Below, in pieces: positions 52,186 through 59,175 of a stretch of DNA of 64,000 nt. Source of the DNA: Pontibacter korlensis (GTDB lineage Bacteria; Bacteroidota; Bacteroidia; Cytophagales; Hymenobacteraceae); contig NZ_CP009621.1 in the NCBI RefSeq assembly GCF_000973725.1, positions 1,958,501-2,022,500 of the forward strand, in the 5' to 3' direction. The translations under genes and the position numbers were made by a program. Under the pieces are notes generated by a model that did not search any database, was not told the origin of the DNA, and saw only the letters and a program-made list of their open reading frames with translations. How positions within the stretch are numbered: the stretch's first letter is position 1; the number at the start of each line of letters is the position of its first letter.

Positions 52186-53763
52186 ATGAAACAGACGATA
52201 GAATCATTGCCGCTGGTGAAGGAAATAACAGATGTACTTCAGCAGTTAGGTATAAAAGAAGTTAATCCTGCCTACAGTACCGGCCTTGTTTGGGGTGGGC
52301 ACGAAGGTCGCTCAACCCGTACTATAACCTCTCCTGCAGACGGAAACACTATTGCCACTGTAAACATGGCGAACGCAGATGATTACGACCAAGTAGTACA
52401 GACAGCTCAGGAAGCATTTAAGGTATGGCGCAAGACTCCGGCTCCAAAGCGTGGCGAGGTTGTGCGCCAGATCGGTGACAGACTGCGCAAGCACAAAGAG
52501 GCGTTGGGGAAACTGGTAAGCTATGAGATGGGCAAAATTTATCAGGAGGGCCTGGGCGAGGTGCAGGAGATGATTGACATCTGCGATTTTGCTGTGGGTC
52601 TGTCGCGCCAGCTGCATGGCTTTACCATGCACTCAGAGCGTCCGCAGCACCGTATGTATGAGCAATACCACCCTCTGGGTATTGTAGGTGTTATCTCTGC
52701 TTTCAACTTCCCGGTGGCAGTATGGAGCTGGAACGCTATGCTGGCTGCAGTGTGCGGCGATGTGATCATCTGGAAACCATCTGAGAAAACGCCGCTCACA
52801 GGCGTTGCTTGTCAGCATATTATACGTGAGGTGCTAACCGAGAATGAGCTTCCGGAAGGCATTTTCAACCTGATTATTGGTGATGCTGAAATCGGTAGCC
52901 TGATGAGCCATGACAAGCGCGTGCCGTTGGTATCAGCAACAGGTTCTACGCACATGGGTAAGAAAGTAGGCGAAGCGGTAGGAGCACGCTTAGGTAAATC
53001 TCTCCTGGAGCTGGGAGGTAACAATGCTATTATACTAACTGAGAATGCTGACCTGGAGATGGCACTACGTGCTATTGTGTTCGGGGCAGTGGGTACTTGT
53101 GGCCAGCGTTGTACTTCTACCCGTCGTCTTATCATCCATGAGAATATCTATGATCAGGTAAAAGAGCGCCTCTTGAAAGTGTACCCTAACCTGCCTATTG
53201 GTCATCCGCTGGACAGCACGACATTGATTGGCCCACTTATCGATAAAGATGCTGTAAATGCTTTCTCTAATGCGCTGGAGAAAGTACAGCAAGAAGGTGG
53301 TACGCTGTTAACAGGTGGAGAGGTGTTGAGCGGCGATGGCTTTGAGACGGGTACCTATGTGAAGCCAGCTATCGTAGAGGCTGAGAATCATTATGAGATG
53401 GTGCAGGAGGAAACATTTGCTCCAATCCTGTACCTGATAAAATATAGCGGTGAGGTGGAGAACGCTATTGAAATTCAGAATGGCGTACGTCAGGGTCTGT
53501 CCTCTGCTATATTCTCAACTAGCCTCCTGGAAACAGAAGCTTTCCTGAGCCACTGGGGTTCTGACTGTGGAATTGCCAATGTTAACATTGGTACCTCGGG
53601 AGCCGAAATCGGTGGTGCTTTTGGTGGCGAGAAAGAAACAGGCGGAGGCCGTGAATCTGGCTCCGATGCATGGAAAGTATACATGCGCCGCCAGACCAAC
53701 ACCATTAACTATAGCCGCGAGTTGCCACTAGCCCAAGGTATCAAGTTCGATATCATGGACTAA
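52186..53763 (+). CDS. Aldehyde dehydrogenase, ALDH7 (antiquitin/AmaB) type
   Basis: An NAD-dependent aldehyde dehydrogenase of 525 residues. The general base is in LLELGGNNA and the catalytic Cys in GTCGQRCTSTRRL near residue 310. The family branch is indicated by the NPAYSTGLVWGG opening and the SGAEIGGAFGGEKETGGGRE segment, typical of alpha-aminoadipic semialdehyde (piperideine-6-carboxylate) dehydrogenases of lysine degradation. The pathway assignment is by family. ATG 52186 is chosen as the start; the open frame upstream runs through the degP terminator and is not coding. Confidence 0.92.
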   Translation: MKQTIESLPLVKEITDVLQQLGIKEVNPAYSTGLVWGGHEGRSTRTITSPADGNTIATVNMANADDYDQVVQTAQEAFKVWRKTPAPKRGEVVRQIGDRLRKHKEALGKLVSYEMGKIYQEGLGEVQEMIDICDFAVGLSRQLHGFTMHSERPQHRMYEQYHPLGIVGVISAFNFPVAVWSWNAMLAAVCGDVIIWKPSEKTPLTGVACQHIIREVLTENELPEGIFNLIIGDAEIGSLMSHDKRVPLVSATGSTHMGKKVGEAVGARLGKSLLELGGNNAIILTENADLEMALRAIVFGAVGTCGQRCTSTRRLIIHENIYDQVKERLLKVYPNLPIGHPLDSTTLIGPLIDKDAVNAFSNALEKVQQEGGTLLTGGEVLSGDGFETGTYVKPAIVEAENHYEMVQEETFAPILYLIKYSGEVENAIEIQNGVRQGLSSAIFSTSLLETEAFLSHWGSDCGIANVNIGTSGAEIGGAFGGEKETGGGRESGSDAWKVYMRRQTNTINYSRELPLAQGIKFDIMD

Positions 53764-53800
53764 GGCTACAGGATGCTTTCAGCATCATTAGGCTACATAT

Positions 53801-53843
53801 AAACAAAAAAGCCAGCTCTATAAAAGGGCTGGCTTTTTTGTTT
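53801..53843 (+). terminator. Intrinsic terminator after the aldehyde dehydrogenase gene
   Basis: 53801-53818 pairs with 53826-53843: an 18 bp stem with one G-U pair (AAACAAAAAAGCCAGC against GCTGGCTTTTTTGTTT at its core), loop of 7 nt, T-run inside the right arm. Confidence 0.92.
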
Positions 53844-54020
53844 AGCAGTGTTCATATCTTTATCTGTACCCATCAGCTGTTTGGCGCTACAGTTTATATA
53901 CAGGAATGAGAGATTGTACCAGGTGCTTCTACAGTTCTTTCTCAAATCTGATTCCTTTGTTGTCGCAGTAAGCCATCTTCTTCCTTATCTACTCTTCCGC
54001 GAATTTGTACATCTGTTCAC

Positions 54021-54217
54021 TTATCCACATTTGTGCATAAATAGTATGTGGATATGTGGAAAACTGTTGTTTATACCTGCAGCTTGAGTACTGAAGGAGT
54101 AGCTACAGGAGTAACCACTTCCTATGTTATCCCATAATATATATTGTAAGACAAAGAAGATGAAGAAGATATAGCGTTTTAACATTATCCACAAACAGGT
54201 GTGGATTGTGTGGAAAA
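54021..54217. other. Cluster of DnaA boxes, origin-like or DnaA-binding locus
   Basis: Exact TTATCCACA occurs at 54021-54029 and 54185-54193 on the plus strand. TTATGCACA is on the minus strand at 54032-54040. One-mismatch boxes on the minus strand are ATATCCACA (54047-54055), TTTTCCACA (54055-54063) and TTTTCCACA (54209-54217), with a two-mismatch box at 54200-54208. The sites form two similar modules (forward box, then TGTGGAT and TGTGGAAAA) on either side of an AT-rich stretch. This is the layout of a bipartite oriC or another DnaA-binding locus. No dnaA gene is adjacent, and the highly expressed operons on both sides are transcribed toward this point, which argues against a plain origin. 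Confidence 0.6.
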
Positions 54218-54269
54218 GTTAGTTAACGAAAAACATCTTGAAAAATTTTGCAACTTGATGCAACCTCAA

Positions 54270-54342
54270 GTAAACGGGCTTGTCTTTAGTGTAGATTGAA
54301 TGAGGCAGAATGGGAGAGTAATATAAGCATGTAAACGGGCTT
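54270..54342 (+). repeat. Direct repeat GTAAACGGGCTT upstream of the sigma factor gene
   Basis: The 12-mer occurs at 54270-54281 and 54331-54342, 61 bp apart. The second copy runs into the palindrome TTAACCGGTTAA (54341-54352), which ends 10 nt before the TTG start. They are candidates for regulator binding or for the autoregulated promoter of an ECF sigma factor. Confidence 0.55.
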
Positions 54343-54362
54343 AACCGGTTAAACAGAAGATA

Positions 54363-54920
54363 TTGGAAAAACTAGGATATCAGGATGTAAACCACCAGGT
54401 GGTAGAACGCTGTAAGAGCGGAGACCACAGGGCGCAGTATGAGCTGTATAAGCTTTACTCGAAAGCCATGTTTAACGTGAGCATGCGCATAACAAACGAT
54501 TATGCCGAAGCCGAGGATGTATTACAGGAAGCATTTATAAGTGCCTTTAAGAACCTGCATAGTTATAAAGGTGAGGCAAGCTTTGGCAGTTGGCTAAAGA
54601 AGATAGTGGTGAACGCAGCCATAAATGCTATCCGGAAGCGCCGTGCAGAGCTGGTACCGATGGACGAAAGAGTTGTGGAAGATGTGCCTGATGAAGTATC
54701 GGAGGATGACTCGGAGTGGCAGGTTGAGCAAGTGCGGAGAGCAATTCAGAAACTGCCAGATGGCTATAGGGTTGTACTAAGTTTATACTTGCTGGAGGGC
54801 TACGATCATGCTGAGATAGGAGAGGTGCTGGGTATATCAGAATCAACTTCTAAGTCGCAATATAGCCGGGCACGGAAGAAGTTACTGGAGATAATGAGAG
54901 AGCCGCAGTTTGTGGCCTGA
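54363..54920 (+). CDS. ECF-type RNA polymerase sigma factor
   Basis: A 185-residue sigma factor with region 2 (YSKAMFNVSMRITNDYAEAEDVLQEAF, split over residues 32-60) and region 4 (LPDGYRVVLSLYLLEGYDHAEI, then GISESTSKSQYSRARKKL) and no regions 1 or 3. An in-frame stop at 54342-54344 and the lack of an ATG make TTG 54363 the start. A probable anti-sigma gene follows after 35 bp, the standard ECF arrangement, so activity is likely held by a membrane-bound inhibitor. Confidence 0.93.
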   Translation: MEKLGYQDVNHQVVERCKSGDHRAQYELYKLYSKAMFNVSMRITNDYAEAEDVLQEAFISAFKNLHSYKGEASFGSWLKKIVVNAAINAIRKRRAELVPMDERVVEDVPDEVSEDDSEWQVEQVRRAIQKLPDGYRVVLSLYLLEGYDHAEIGEVLGISESTSKSQYSRARKKLLEIMREPQFVA

Positions 54921-54955: not shown

Positions 54956-55597
54956 ATGAAAGATAGATTAGAAAAATTTGTGCAAGATAACCGGGAGGAG
55001 TTTGATGTATTCGAGCCCCGGCAGGAGCTGTGGCAGCAGATATGCCATGAGCTTCCAAATAATACACCCGAAAAAGAGACTAAGGTAATCAAGTTTAACT
55101 TTGGCGACCGTGCTAGCTTCAGTGCAGATTTCTTCTTTATGCGTGTGGCAGCAGCCATTATACTTCTTCTGGGCTGTGGCCTTACTATCTTCCTGATGAA
55201 GCAGCAAACTCCTGATACAGCCAACACGCTAGCTGCTAACACAACCTTGCCAAGCGTAAGCGCTATCGCACCAGAGTTGCCAGAGGTAGAGGCATATTAT
55301 GTAAGCCAGATAGAAGCAAAGAAATCAGAGCTTAGCGATTATGACCTGAAGGTGCTGGGTCTAGACGAGCAGCAGGTAATAGATAAAGAGCTTGCTCGCC
55401 TCGACAGCAGCTACAATCAGCTTAAAAAGCAGCTTTATACTTCTCCTAACACCGATGAAATAGTAGGCAGCCTTATCCAGAACCTGCAGATACGGATTAA
55501 GGTGCTGAACCGCCAATTGGAAGTACTCCAGAATCTGGAGAAAATGAAACAAGAGCCTATTCAAGAACCACAAAAAGATGAAACCACAAATGTATAA
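54956..55597 (+). CDS. Probable anti-sigma factor, single-pass membrane protein
   Basis: A 213-residue protein with an N-terminal cytoplasmic part of about 60 residues (KDRLEKFVQDNREEFDVFEP), one membrane segment near residues 62-82 (MRVAAAIILLLGCGLTIFLM), and a C-terminal periplasmic region with helical coiled-coil character (YNQLKKQLYTSPNTDEIV, then RIKVLNRQLEVLQNLEKMKQ). No zinc-binding anti-sigma motif HxxxCxxC is visible. The anti-sigma role is inferred from topology and position. Its end overlaps the next gene by 20 bases. Confidence 0.72.
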   Translation: MKDRLEKFVQDNREEFDVFEPRQELWQQICHELPNNTPEKETKVIKFNFGDRASFSADFFFMRVAAAIILLLGCGLTIFLMKQQTPDTANTLAANTTLPSVSAIAPELPEVEAYYVSQIEAKKSELSDYDLKVLGLDEQQVIDKELARLDSSYNQLKKQLYTSPNTDEIVGSLIQNLQIRIKVLNRQLEVLQNLEKMKQEPIQEPQKDETTNV

Positions 55598-56783
55598 TTC
55601 TCTACGCCTTTTGTTGGTGCTGGCTATAACGCCCATAATGGCGTTGGCACAGCCCACAAGACCAGCACCTTGTCCGGATATGTCAATTGATTTTTCTGGA
55701 TTAGTACTTGAGGAAATCAAAATAGAAAGGCTGGCGGACATGCGGGAACTAAAACACCTGGCTGCACTGGAAAGCCTGTCGGACTTAAAAAATCTGGCTG
55801 ATCTGAAAGACTTACCGGAAATGAAACACCTGGTGGTAGTGGGCCAGACAGGAGCCATCAATCAAACAGATAGCCCCGAGTCAGAAGCGGCCATGTTTAA
55901 CGCAGAAAAGCGCAAGACCATTGATAAGACCTTTAAGGTAAGCAGCAAAGATGTATTGAACATCGAAAACCAGTGGGGTAAGGTGCACGTGAATACCTGG
56001 GACAAAAATGAGATGAGGGTAAAGGTAGACATCATTGCCCGTGCCAGCACCGATGCAAGAGCACAGGAGATTCTCAATAGCGTAAGTGTACAGGAAAGCC
56101 GTGATGGAAACACATACTTCTTTCGTACCAAAAAAGAGCCGATACGCATCAGTGATCATAATAGCAACAGAGGTCTTGAGATAAACTATACCATCTACAT
56201 GCCAGCTGAGAATGCCATTGCAGTGAAGAATAGCTTTGGCGATGTATACCTGGCATCGCTTAAAGGCAAGGCAGACATAGACGTAAAACACGGAACTTTT
56301 AAATGTGACCGTCTGACAAATTCTGGCAATACAGTAAAGCTAACCTATGGCTCCGGAAGCTGTGGTTACATTAATGGTGGAGTTATCAGTGTGGCCTATG
56401 CCGATATGAAGGTAGCCGAGGCCGGCGGCTTACAGGGTACCTCTAAGTATAGCGACTTTAGTGTGGGCAGTCTGGAGGATGTAATGGAGATGGATGTGAA
56501 GTACGGATCCTTTAGAATTGATAACATCAGCAAAAACATACGCAAGATTTCACTAGATAGCGGCTTTACACCCCTTAACCTGAACTTTGCAGACAATACC
56601 GCTTTCAACTTCGACGTGAATGTGCAGTTCGGTAACTTTAATGTAGATAAGTCGTTGGTTACTATAACATCTCTTGAAAAGAGCTACACTTCGGCTGAAT
56701 ACAAAGGCCGGTTTGGTGGCACTTCGCCAAAGGGGGTAGTAAGTATAAACTCCAAGTATGGTGACGTGAAGTTTACGAAATAG
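55578..56783 (+). CDS. Secreted DUF4097-like beta-helical protein with a leucine-triplet tract
   Basis: A 401-residue exported protein with a signal peptide ending in ALAQ near residue 25. Residues 52-85 show Leu or Met at every third position, twelve in a row. From about residue 110 there are short repeated strand motifs (NIENQWGKVHVNTWD, AVKNSFGDVYLASLKGKADI, MDVKYGSFRIDNISK) typical of the putative adhesin/beta-helix DUF4097 type. It overlaps the anti-sigma gene by 20 bases, so it belongs to the same transcript and may be the envelope sensor or the effector of the sigma system. Confidence 0.75.
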   Translation: MKPQMYNSLRLLLVLAITPIMALAQPTRPAPCPDMSIDFSGLVLEEIKIERLADMRELKHLAALESLSDLKNLADLKDLPEMKHLVVVGQTGAINQTDSPESEAAMFNAEKRKTIDKTFKVSSKDVLNIENQWGKVHVNTWDKNEMRVKVDIIARASTDARAQEILNSVSVQESRDGNTYFFRTKKEPIRISDHNSNRGLEINYTIYMPAENAIAVKNSFGDVYLASLKGKADIDVKHGTFKCDRLTNSGNTVKLTYGSGSCGYINGGVISVAYADMKVAEAGGLQGTSKYSDFSVGSLEDVMEMDVKYGSFRIDNISKNIRKISLDSGFTPLNLNFADNTAFNFDVNVQFGNFNVDKSLVTITSLEKSYTSAEYKGRFGGTSPKGVVSINSKYGDVKFTK

Positions 56784-57360: not shown

Positions 57361-59175
57361 GTGAGCGAAAGCAGAGAAAGTTTATACCTTGGCAGAGCCT
57401 CTGGCTTTGCTGAGCAGGAAAAAAAGGCCGCCTCTACCTCCAGCGCTGTTTCGTGGCTGCGGGTAGGCGTGTTTGTAGCTGGTTTAGGGCTGGCGTACCA
57501 CTTCTTCAACACTGGCAATAGTACAGCTGGTGCTGTTACCATCTTGGTATTTTACGGCTTGTTTATACTGGTAATGCGGTGGCATAGTGGGCTTAACTTC
57601 CGTTATCAGCAGTTGCGATTGCTGCGCATGGTTAACGAGCAGGAGGTAGAGCGCTTACAGGGAAAACTCAACAAGTTCGATTCAGGGCAGGAGTTCGTAG
57701 ATGATCATCATCCGTATACTTCAGACCTCGATATCTTTGGACACAATTCGCTCTTCCAACTTCTTAACCACTCGGTAACTAGTATAGGTAAGCTTAAGCT
57801 GGCAACCTGGTTAAGGCAGGCAGGCACGCCACAGGAGGTATTGCAGCGGCAGGAGGCGGTGGCTGAGCTAGCGTCTCCTAATCAGTTAGACTGGCTGCAG
57901 GAACTCCTGGCGCTACCCATGCACTATAAACATGATGCAGAGTCGGCAGAGGGGTTTATAAATTGGTTTAGGAATAAGGCGTTCTTTCGGCAGCATGCAT
58001 GGCTAAAGCCGCTCCTGTTTATACTTCCGGTACTTACGCTGGCAGCCATTGCAGCATGGTTTTACGGCCTGAGCGGCTGGATTGCCGTTGCCTTACTGTT
58101 GGTGCAGTTTCTGTTAGCTTACAGGTTCCGGGTAGAGCGCGACGAGTATTACGAGAAAAGCATTGGCATTTATGAAGCTATGCGTAGCTATACCAAACAG
58201 CTACAGCATATAGAAGGGCATCAGTATAGCTCGCCAGTACTACAGTCGCTACAACAGGAGCTAAAGGCTTCTGGTACTAAAGCCTCTGCCAGTATAAACA
58301 AGCTTGCTAATATCATCGACTTTTTCTCCTGGCGCCTTAGTACATTAATGGCTTTTTTCCTGAACAATACGCTGCTCTGGGACTTTGTGTGGATATATCG
58401 CCTGGAAAGTTGGAAAGAGCAGTACCTGCAGCAGCTGGAACGAAGCCTGGAGGTGCTGGCCGAGCTAGAGGCATTGGCAAGTATAGCTGCTTTCCAGCAC
58501 GCGCATCCACAGTTTGCTGTACCTCAACTTAGCCCTACGCCTTTTCTGTATCAAGCTACTGCCTTGGCACATCCGCTTATTTTCTCAGTAAAGCCTGTTG
58601 CAAATGATTTTGAGATGCAGGGAGCGGGACATTCCATCGTAATTACAGGCTCTAACATGTCAGGCAAAACTACCTTTCTGCGTACAGTAGGTATAAACAT
58701 GGTCTTGGCGCTATTAGGAGCACCAGTCTGTGCCAGAAGTATGACTGTGGCTCCAGCACAAGTATACACAGCTATGCGTACTGCTGATAACCTGGCCGAG
58801 AATACTTCCTCATTCTACGCCGAATTAAAGCGCTTGCGTATGTTGCTAGAGCTGACTGAGCAGGGGGAGCCAGTTTTCTACCTCCTCGATGAAATACTAA
58901 AAGGCACCAACTCCCGTGATCGTCACCTGGGGGCCATGTCACTGATACGTCAGCTTCATAAGCGTAATGCTTCCGGCCTTATCTCTACACATGACCTGGA
59001 GCTTGGGGCAATGGAACAGGAATTGCCAGGTGGCGTAGAAAACTACAGCTTTAACAGCGACATCATTGGGGATAAGATAAACTTTGATTATAAGCTTACT
59101 CCTGGCCTCTGCCGTAGCTTCAATGCCAGCAAACTCATGCAGCTAATGGGTATTGAGATAGAAGAGGAGGCCTAA
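57361..59175 (+). CDS. Membrane-anchored MutS-family ATPase
   Basis: A 604-residue protein starting at GTG. It has about four membrane segments, two near residues 31-75 (VGVFVAGLGLAYHFF, TILVFYGLFILVM) and two near 218-262, then a MutS core with lever-like helices and a complete ATPase: Walker A GSNMSGKTTF near residue 430, DEILKGTNSRDR as Walker B and signature, and LISTHD. The mismatch-binding domain I of MutS is missing. The family is widespread in Bacteroidota, and its job is not mismatch repair on present evidence. Functional assignment to any DNA transaction is inference. Confidence 0.88.
   Translation: MSESRESLYLGRASGFAEQEKKAASTSSAVSWLRVGVFVAGLGLAYHFFNTGNSTAGAVTILVFYGLFILVMRWHSGLNFRYQQLRLLRMVNEQEVERLQGKLNKFDSGQEFVDDHHPYTSDLDIFGHNSLFQLLNHSVTSIGKLKLATWLRQAGTPQEVLQRQEAVAELASPNQLDWLQELLALPMHYKHDAESAEGFINWFRNKAFFRQHAWLKPLLFILPVLTLAAIAAWFYGLSGWIAVALLLVQFLLAYRFRVERDEYYEKSIGIYEAMRSYTKQLQHIEGHQYSSPVLQSLQQELKASGTKASASINKLANIIDFFSWRLSTLMAFFLNNTLLWDFVWIYRLESWKEQYLQQLERSLEVLAELEALASIAAFQHAHPQFAVPQLSPTPFLYQATALAHPLIFSVKPVANDFEMQGAGHSIVITGSNMSGKTTFLRTVGINMVLALLGAPVCARSMTVAPAQVYTAMRTADNLAENTSSFYAELKRLRMLLELTEQGEPVFYLLDEILKGTNSRDRHLGAMSLIRQLHKRNASGLISTHDLELGAMEQELPGGVENYSFNSDIIGDKINFDYKLTPGLCRSFNASKLMQLMGIEIEEEA

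Follow-up and report, generated by a model that had tools for sequence, protein, structure and literature searches.

Which role can be assigned to a cluster of DnaA boxes that lies upstream of an ECF sigma factor gene in Pontibacter? The cluster occupies positions 54,021-54,217 of the window, the 64-kb stretch of DNA that was analysed as a whole (bases 1,958,501-2,022,500 of one contig of 5,462,537 bp), which are positions 2,012,521-2,012,717 of the contig. Most of what is understood of DnaA control outside oriC comes from E. coli, B. subtilis and Caulobacter. Our literature search, with most subscription journals outside it, returned no paper on DnaA in Pontibacter and none in which an ECF sigma promoter carries an array of DnaA boxes. 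The earlier note on this DNA had left a choice between an origin of replication, a datA-like titration site and a DnaA-controlled promoter of the sigma operon; the last appears to be the best supported of the three, via the fixed spacing of the boxes to a conserved, predicted ECF-type promoter.

The box array and its setting

The array lies in a gap between an ALDH gene and the sigma gene (Table 1), which the earlier note had put at about 600 bp and which measures 599 bp. All six boxes listed there (two TTATCCACA, one TTATGCACA and three with one mismatch, within 197 bp) were found again, and a seventh, the two-mismatch box B2 starting at 54,200, can be added to them. The boxes form a module A with the geometry +0, -11, -26, -34 and a module B with +164, -179, -188; A1 and B1 are on the plus strand, the other five on the minus strand. 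The two-module form described before is thereby retained, whereas the stretch between the modules, then called AT-rich, is just mildly so (64% A+T, versus 62% in the gap and 55% in the window). The high box density claimed before is not a product of chance: the best 197-bp stretch contained two to four boxes in 300 first-order Markov simulations of the window versus six observed, and the observed weighted box count was reached in 0 of 300 such simulated 64-kb windows. The box total of the window (62) equals that expected by chance (mean 62.7), and genome-wide there are 51 exact TTATCCACA boxes versus 33 for the reversed control, so that single boxes are mostly background. Apart from the array, exact TTATCCACA boxes at most 200 bp apart occur in the genome only at 5,160,039-5,160,085, before mraZ, and at 1,862,888-1,862,911. 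The DnaA of the host retains the DNA-binding stretch GGRDHSTV (GGRDHTTV in E. coli).

At the ALDH end of the gap, the hairpin at 53,800-53,844 is probably a two-way terminator 3' of the ALDH gene and probably shields the array from ALDH transcription. By eye, the alignment shows comparable hairpins in many relatives; a terminator scan listed no terminator at this hairpin, and a search against Rfam gave no match anywhere in the 64-kb window. The closest named relatives of the sigma gene are found in Pontibacter species (79-92% identity). It is followed by a gene for a candidate anti-sigma factor of 213 amino acids, which had no Pfam match, and by that of a 401-aa protein which probably belongs to the same operon. 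Since the sigma gene lies near htrA, its role is perhaps in envelope stress. Further downstream, at 57,361-59,175, a MutS-like protein of 604 aa is encoded that matches MutS domains III and V only and scores far under the cut-offs for MutS1 and MutS2.

Table 1. Features of the gap and of the predicted sigma operon (positions in the window; aligned sequences are those of the array carriers)
Feature	Position	Strand	Remarks
Gene-free gap	53764..54362		599 bp between ALDH stop codon and TTG start of sigma; contains the whole element
Hairpin	53800..53844		20-bp stem, A-run and T-run; RNA fold -29.5 kcal/mol, z -8.3
Box A1 TTATCCACA	54021..54029	+	exact in 16/17 aligned sequences, own included
Box A2 TTATGCACA	54032..54040	-	opposes A1 over 2 bp; at most 1 mismatch in 17/17
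Box A3 ATATCCACA	54047..54055	-	same variant in 16/17
Box A4 TTTTCCACA	54055..54063	-	variant in 11/17; one base common to A3
Spacer A-B	54064..54184		121 bp; sequence drifted, length near-constant except in G069
Box B1 TTATCCACA	54185..54193	+	at most 1 mismatch in 15/17
Box B2 CAATCCACA	54200..54208	-	two mismatches here; CTATCCACA or TTATCCACA in 12/17
Box B3 TTTTCCACA	54209..54217	-	abuts B2; at most 1 mismatch in 16/17
ECF-type promoter motif TGCAAC-N17-GTCTTTA	54259..54288	+	conserved; promoter predicted from motif
ECF sigma-70 factor	54363..54920	+	TTG start; orthologue in 50/50 genus genomes
Candidate anti-sigma factor, 213 aa	54956..55597	+	NCBIfam E 0.073, weak; hydrophobic stretch by eye
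401-aa protein	55578..56783	+	no family match; overlaps preceding frame

Conservation of the array and its spacing to the predicted sigma promoter

In an alignment of 17 of the 18 array sequences, from which that of G069 was omitted because of its insertion, the seven boxes keep fixed positions amid drifting sequence. Pairwise identity was 92.1% in the box columns versus 45.4% elsewhere; when the box mask was shifted circularly, none of the 204 positions reached this difference of 0.467 (maximum 0.423). The place of B2 differs by at most two mismatches from TTATNCACA in all 17 sequences, the one studied here included, and where module B could be read in relatives its offsets are +162-165, -177-180 and -186-189. 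Variants are frequent at B2 and B3. The fixation of weak box variants suggests that their affinity may be tuned. Conservation of the boxes above their surroundings was thus found as it would be for a box cluster at a regulated promoter, and the same holds for a group of boxes packed more densely than expected by chance into the intergenic region before a gene.

Allowing three mismatches, the module A pattern occurs in one copy each in 18 of 50 Pontibacter genomes, in all 18 before the same ECF sigma gene. A draw of 390 genomes from the order gave nine matches, all among its 19 Pontibacter members; the other 371 genomes, from different genera, had none. In the 32 Pontibacter genomes where module A is missing at this threshold, a profile search with the element gave no match at the sigma locus at E values up to 1. 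Loss of the boxes in close relatives, which the earlier note had held would make any DnaA role doubtful, therefore has two sides: absence from 32 of 50 congeners on the one, strict retention in 18 on the other.

The carriers are for the most part related. In a tree of neighbouring proteins from the 50 genomes, 17 of the 18 cluster (SH-aLRT 85); P. silvestris (G033) carries the array outside this main group and pairs with G007, itself without array. Among the named set of loci, 12 of 13 array carriers fall in one group, a single clade for all 13 (own included) was rejected by the AU test (p 0.004), and P. silvestris sits on a long branch. The history of the array may comprise ancestral presence followed by losses, two gains, or transfer. 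All 12 named array-bearing loci have the motif TGCAAC...GTCTTTA between array and sigma gene, and 25 of the 26 named loci that lack the array also have it before the sigma gene, implying that the array was gained onto, or lost from, a pre-existing promoter. Its GCAAC + GTC form, which we take to be that of ECF promoters, makes it likely that the sigma factor activates its own promoter. A sigma-70 promoter scan of 53,700-54,500 gave no promoter. Housekeeping promoters of Bacteroidota follow the consensus TTTG...TAnnTTTG, of which a full match was absent from all 18 array loci. Elsewhere in the genome the sigma promoter motif recurs exactly just once (contig positions 4,801,564-4,801,593, minus strand; L313), before an ORF which by eye resembles an outer-membrane protein with a carboxypeptidase-regulatory-like domain and which is a candidate target of the sigma factor.

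The distance of the array to this motif is nearly invariant. From A1 to the -10 element it is 258-262 bp in 17 of 18 genomes, and from B3 to the -35 element 50-52 bp in all 16 genomes where both were read. B1 and the -10 element are 96 bp apart in this genome and 95-97 bp apart across the 16 genomes with a readable B1. Hence array and motif vary by just 2-4 bp relative to each other, versus 17 bp for the leader between -10 and start codon (77-94 bp in the 17 genomes where the start was found). In G069 (L192), an insertion of about 190 bp, the ends of which look like inverted repeats by eye, separates modules A and B, and module B is partly decayed; the insertion breaks the A-B distance, yet B1 to -10 remains 97 bp. 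Such a constant array-promoter geometry, the promoter being placed by its motif, is a further property that the array shares with box clusters at regulated promoters.

We therefore favour, with somewhat better than even confidence, the reading of the array as a putative control region through which DnaA would act on the ECF sigma operon, present in one Pontibacter lineage and in P. silvestris. DnaA would bind modules A and B cooperatively, and the weak box variants would make binding dependent on the level or nucleotide state of DnaA. The two DnaA complexes might bend or loop the 121-bp spacer, and their assembly would alter, most likely damp, the activity of the self-activated sigma promoter, which lies about 50 bp further downstream. 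The output of the sigma operon would thereby track the DnaA level and the replication cycle, and as a by-product the array would take up some free DnaA. Several observations count against DnaA control of this promoter: the constant length between module B and promoter could reflect another protein bound there, module A at about 260 bp from the -10 element is far for simple repression, just one other exact promoter match exists in the genome, the 32 of 50 congeners without the module show that the array is dispensable, and both its carriage by P. silvestris outside the main group and the decay of module B in G069 weigh in the same direction.

The nearest parallel is sda of B. subtilis, where, according to the accessible part of the source, DnaA acts on transcription via many upstream boxes (PMC4447404). 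Like the array, the sda region (8 predicted boxes in 300 bp, as given in that part) combines many boxes before a regulatory gene outside oriC. Clusters of boxes proximal to oriC in B. subtilis and Streptomyces are likewise extra-oriC elements of the chromosome, and are reported, in the text available, to affect initiation timing (PMC4585315). The Pontibacter array differs from sda in phylum and target and in having an ECF-type promoter at a fixed distance, and from these clusters in that their effect has been reported.

Titration sites and other binders as alternatives

A datA-like or DARS-like element would be a DnaA sink or nucleotide-state switch that is doubled soon after initiation, with the neighbouring gene incidental. 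We regard this as unlikely, though deserving serious attention. E. coli datA is, like the array, non-coding, composed of box groups and a spacer, and situated at about 10% of the chromosome from oriC (10 centisomes in the accessible text of PMC4585315). The array is 500 kb from the oriC proposed below, and 503, 515, 517 and 552 kb from it in G020, G021, G069 and G001, where both places are on one large contig, i.e., at about 9-12% of the contig (about 9% here). However, the sigma locus is similarly distant in species without the array (G030, 535 kb; G029, 542 kb), and its arrangement relative to the proposed oriC is different in G002 and G060. The position is therefore inherited synteny, and the fixed distance of 0.5 Mb was dropped as evidence for datA.

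The arrangement of the boxes gives a mixed picture as well. In an E. coli control stretch at the datA locus, boxes were found at 4,392,744 and 4,392,906, both on the plus strand and 162 bp apart, and in one at bioD-uvrB at 813,107 (+), 813,121 (-) and 813,133 (-); we take the former to be those of datA and the latter those of DARS1. DARS2 boxes were not recognised in the E. coli stretch searched. The co-oriented A1 and B1, 164 bp apart, resemble the datA pair, and the array is present in a single copy per genome. In the part of PMC5742627 at hand, DARS is described as one box opposed to two, and the essential boxes of datA as all facing one way. Module B has this DARS polarity, its first box being opposed to the second and third as in the cores of DARS1 and DARS2. 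Its spacing of 0/15/24, and the 0/11/26/34 of module A, depart from the 0/14/26 of DARS1. Considering all seven boxes, A1 and B1 are on the plus strand and the five others face back, versus the one-way essential boxes of datA. Between 53,764 and 54,362 there were 0 matches to the IHF consensus with one mismatch allowed, so that no IHF-consensus site lies between the boxes, although the DNA benders of Bacteroidota may read another sequence. Moreover, a sink would leave the rigid promoter spacing unaccounted for and would be missing from 32 of 50 congeners. Of the datA-like option of the earlier note, the position stands, since about 9% of the chromosome separates the array from the proposed oriC, while the lack of an IHF-consensus site, the box directions and the occurrence in just 18 of 50 congeners, tied to a promoter, set the array apart from E. 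coli datA. A dual role, in which the array would link the ECF sigma factor to the replication cycle and act as a Bacteroidota counterpart of datA, is improbable in our estimate; if it were true, sigma output would be reset at each passage of a fork doubling the array.

It is also rather improbable that the TGTGGA repeats bind a factor other than DnaA, e.g., a sigma-operon regulator whose half-site is similar. TGTGGA recurs after 8 bp in A3/A4 and after 9 bp in B2/B3. Paired boxes upstream of genes are a likeness of the array to the E. coli double boxes (nrdA, purH, polA, mutH/DARS2), but E. coli DnaA prefers pairs with gaps of 2-3 bp, at least in the portion of the source available (PMC11317965), whereas the tandem pairs of the array overlap by 1 bp or abut. 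This tighter spacing, unlike that of E. coli DnaA pairs, leaves room for another binder. Against such a binder, complete 9-bp boxes in both directions, often exact TTATNCACA, are kept at seven places, and exact abutting boxes also occur upstream of mraZ.

The probable origin of replication and other DnaA-box arrays in Pontibacter

An active or relic origin at the array, for which box density and gene-free gap might speak, deserves hardly any credence, and oriC at 54,021-54,217 is ruled out: the site lies off the skew minimum, with positive skew on both sides here and in five of five relatives sampled, the sign changes near 1.50 Mb, 0.5 Mb away, where a conserved, box-rich and gene-free stretch is found (both within 1.50-1.512 Mb), and the module is present in just 18 of the 50 genus genomes, i.e., absent from 32.

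Where, then, is oriC? Of 40 samples of 20 kb, those between 4.3 Mb and, past 0, about 1.5 Mb had negative GC skew, save the one at 0.945 Mb; between 1.6 and about 4.1 Mb the skew was positive, save at 2.16, 2.84 and 3.92 Mb. Cumulative skew over 250 continuous kb has its minimum at 1.500 Mb, and on both strands the sign of third-position skew switches from minus to plus between the 10-kb bins 1.490 and 1.500 Mb, with noise in the form of mixed bins at 1.45-1.49 Mb and negative minus-strand bins at 1.52 and 1.53 Mb. About 11 kb past the minimum, a stretch of 1,438 bp without long ORFs (1,510,686-1,512,123; L042) is flanked by a transposase and a Na+/H+ exchanger gene. It contains 16 9-mers with at most two mismatches to TTATCCACA, none exact, versus a mean of 4.2 in 500 simulated stretches, none of which reached 16; its best 231 bp hold 11 degenerate boxes, versus at most 5 in simulations. 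A box with at most one mismatch lies 478-523 bp upstream of the exchanger gene in all 30 genus loci read (50 genomes). Five relatives that have the exchanger place and the sigma locus on a single large contig were compared (G001, G020, G021, G069, G030). Their raw skew at the exchanger place was -0.021 to 0.000 on the left and +0.022 to +0.040 on the right, and at the sigma locus +0.035 to +0.050 on the left and +0.011 to +0.019 on the right; their third-position skew is noisy, and not all values follow the raw skew. Judging from skew and boxes, oriC is probably at about 1.511 Mb, 500 kb to the left of the array. The dnaA gene is 0.76 Mb from this place, and no box cluster was found in the 20 kb around the gene. 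The nrdB array at 1,412,435-1,412,800 was set aside as oriC, since skew is negative or near zero from it up to 1.50 Mb. Two stretches closer to the minimum, at 1.49793-1.49842 Mb and, before a gene named by eye as mnmG, at 1.50444-1.50504 Mb, have at most one two-mismatch box.

With oriC to the left, forks would cross the window from left to right. The gene directions given in the earlier note were borne out for all ribosomal and elongation factor genes tested: those for S12, S7, EF-G, L3 and S13 are on the plus strand at 9.8-25 kb, those for EF-Ts, S2, S9 and L13 on the minus strand at 60.2-62.8 kb. The transcriptional setting, which had been called wrong, is so only in part, since the ribosomal operons at 10-27 kb would be co-directional with replication, and rplM-rpsI-rpsB-tsf would still be met head-on.

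Two further arrays were observed. Upstream of the division-cluster gene mraZ (5,160,039-5,160,085; L040), two abutting exact boxes are opposed by one exact box. The trio has near-constant spacing in 29 of 30 genus loci read, with offsets shifted in the seven loci that were anchored on the second MraZ repeat, and in the thirtieth (L242, in G033) one of the abutting pair is lost. Upstream of mraZ, none of five other members of the family (G072, G079, G095, G109, G123) had exact boxes; elsewhere in the order they occurred at 3 of 24 loci (three boxes in G111, one each in G042 and G081). The looser array with variants at nrdB (1,412,435-1,412,800; L081; by eye the gene for the small subunit of ribonucleotide reductase) comprises four or more boxes with up to one mismatch in the 700 bp upstream of the gene in 28 of 30 loci read, and the two loci without it (L275, L279) are in genomes with two nrdB copies; it includes here a tandem pair with a 3-bp gap, like the E. 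coli double boxes as far as these are described in the available text. Nucleotide synthesis and replication are the theme of the E. coli DnaA regulon in the part of PMC11317965 consulted. The arrays at mraZ and nrdB fit this theme, which, to the extent of that source, makes DnaA control of the sigma operon more plausible.

Our analysis points to a Pontibacter oriC next to the Na+/H+ exchanger gene, and the arrays at mraZ and nrdB might be part of a circuit connecting replication, division and nucleotide supply. The 18 genomes with and the 32 without the array at the same locus constitute a natural comparison of DnaA control on one promoter.
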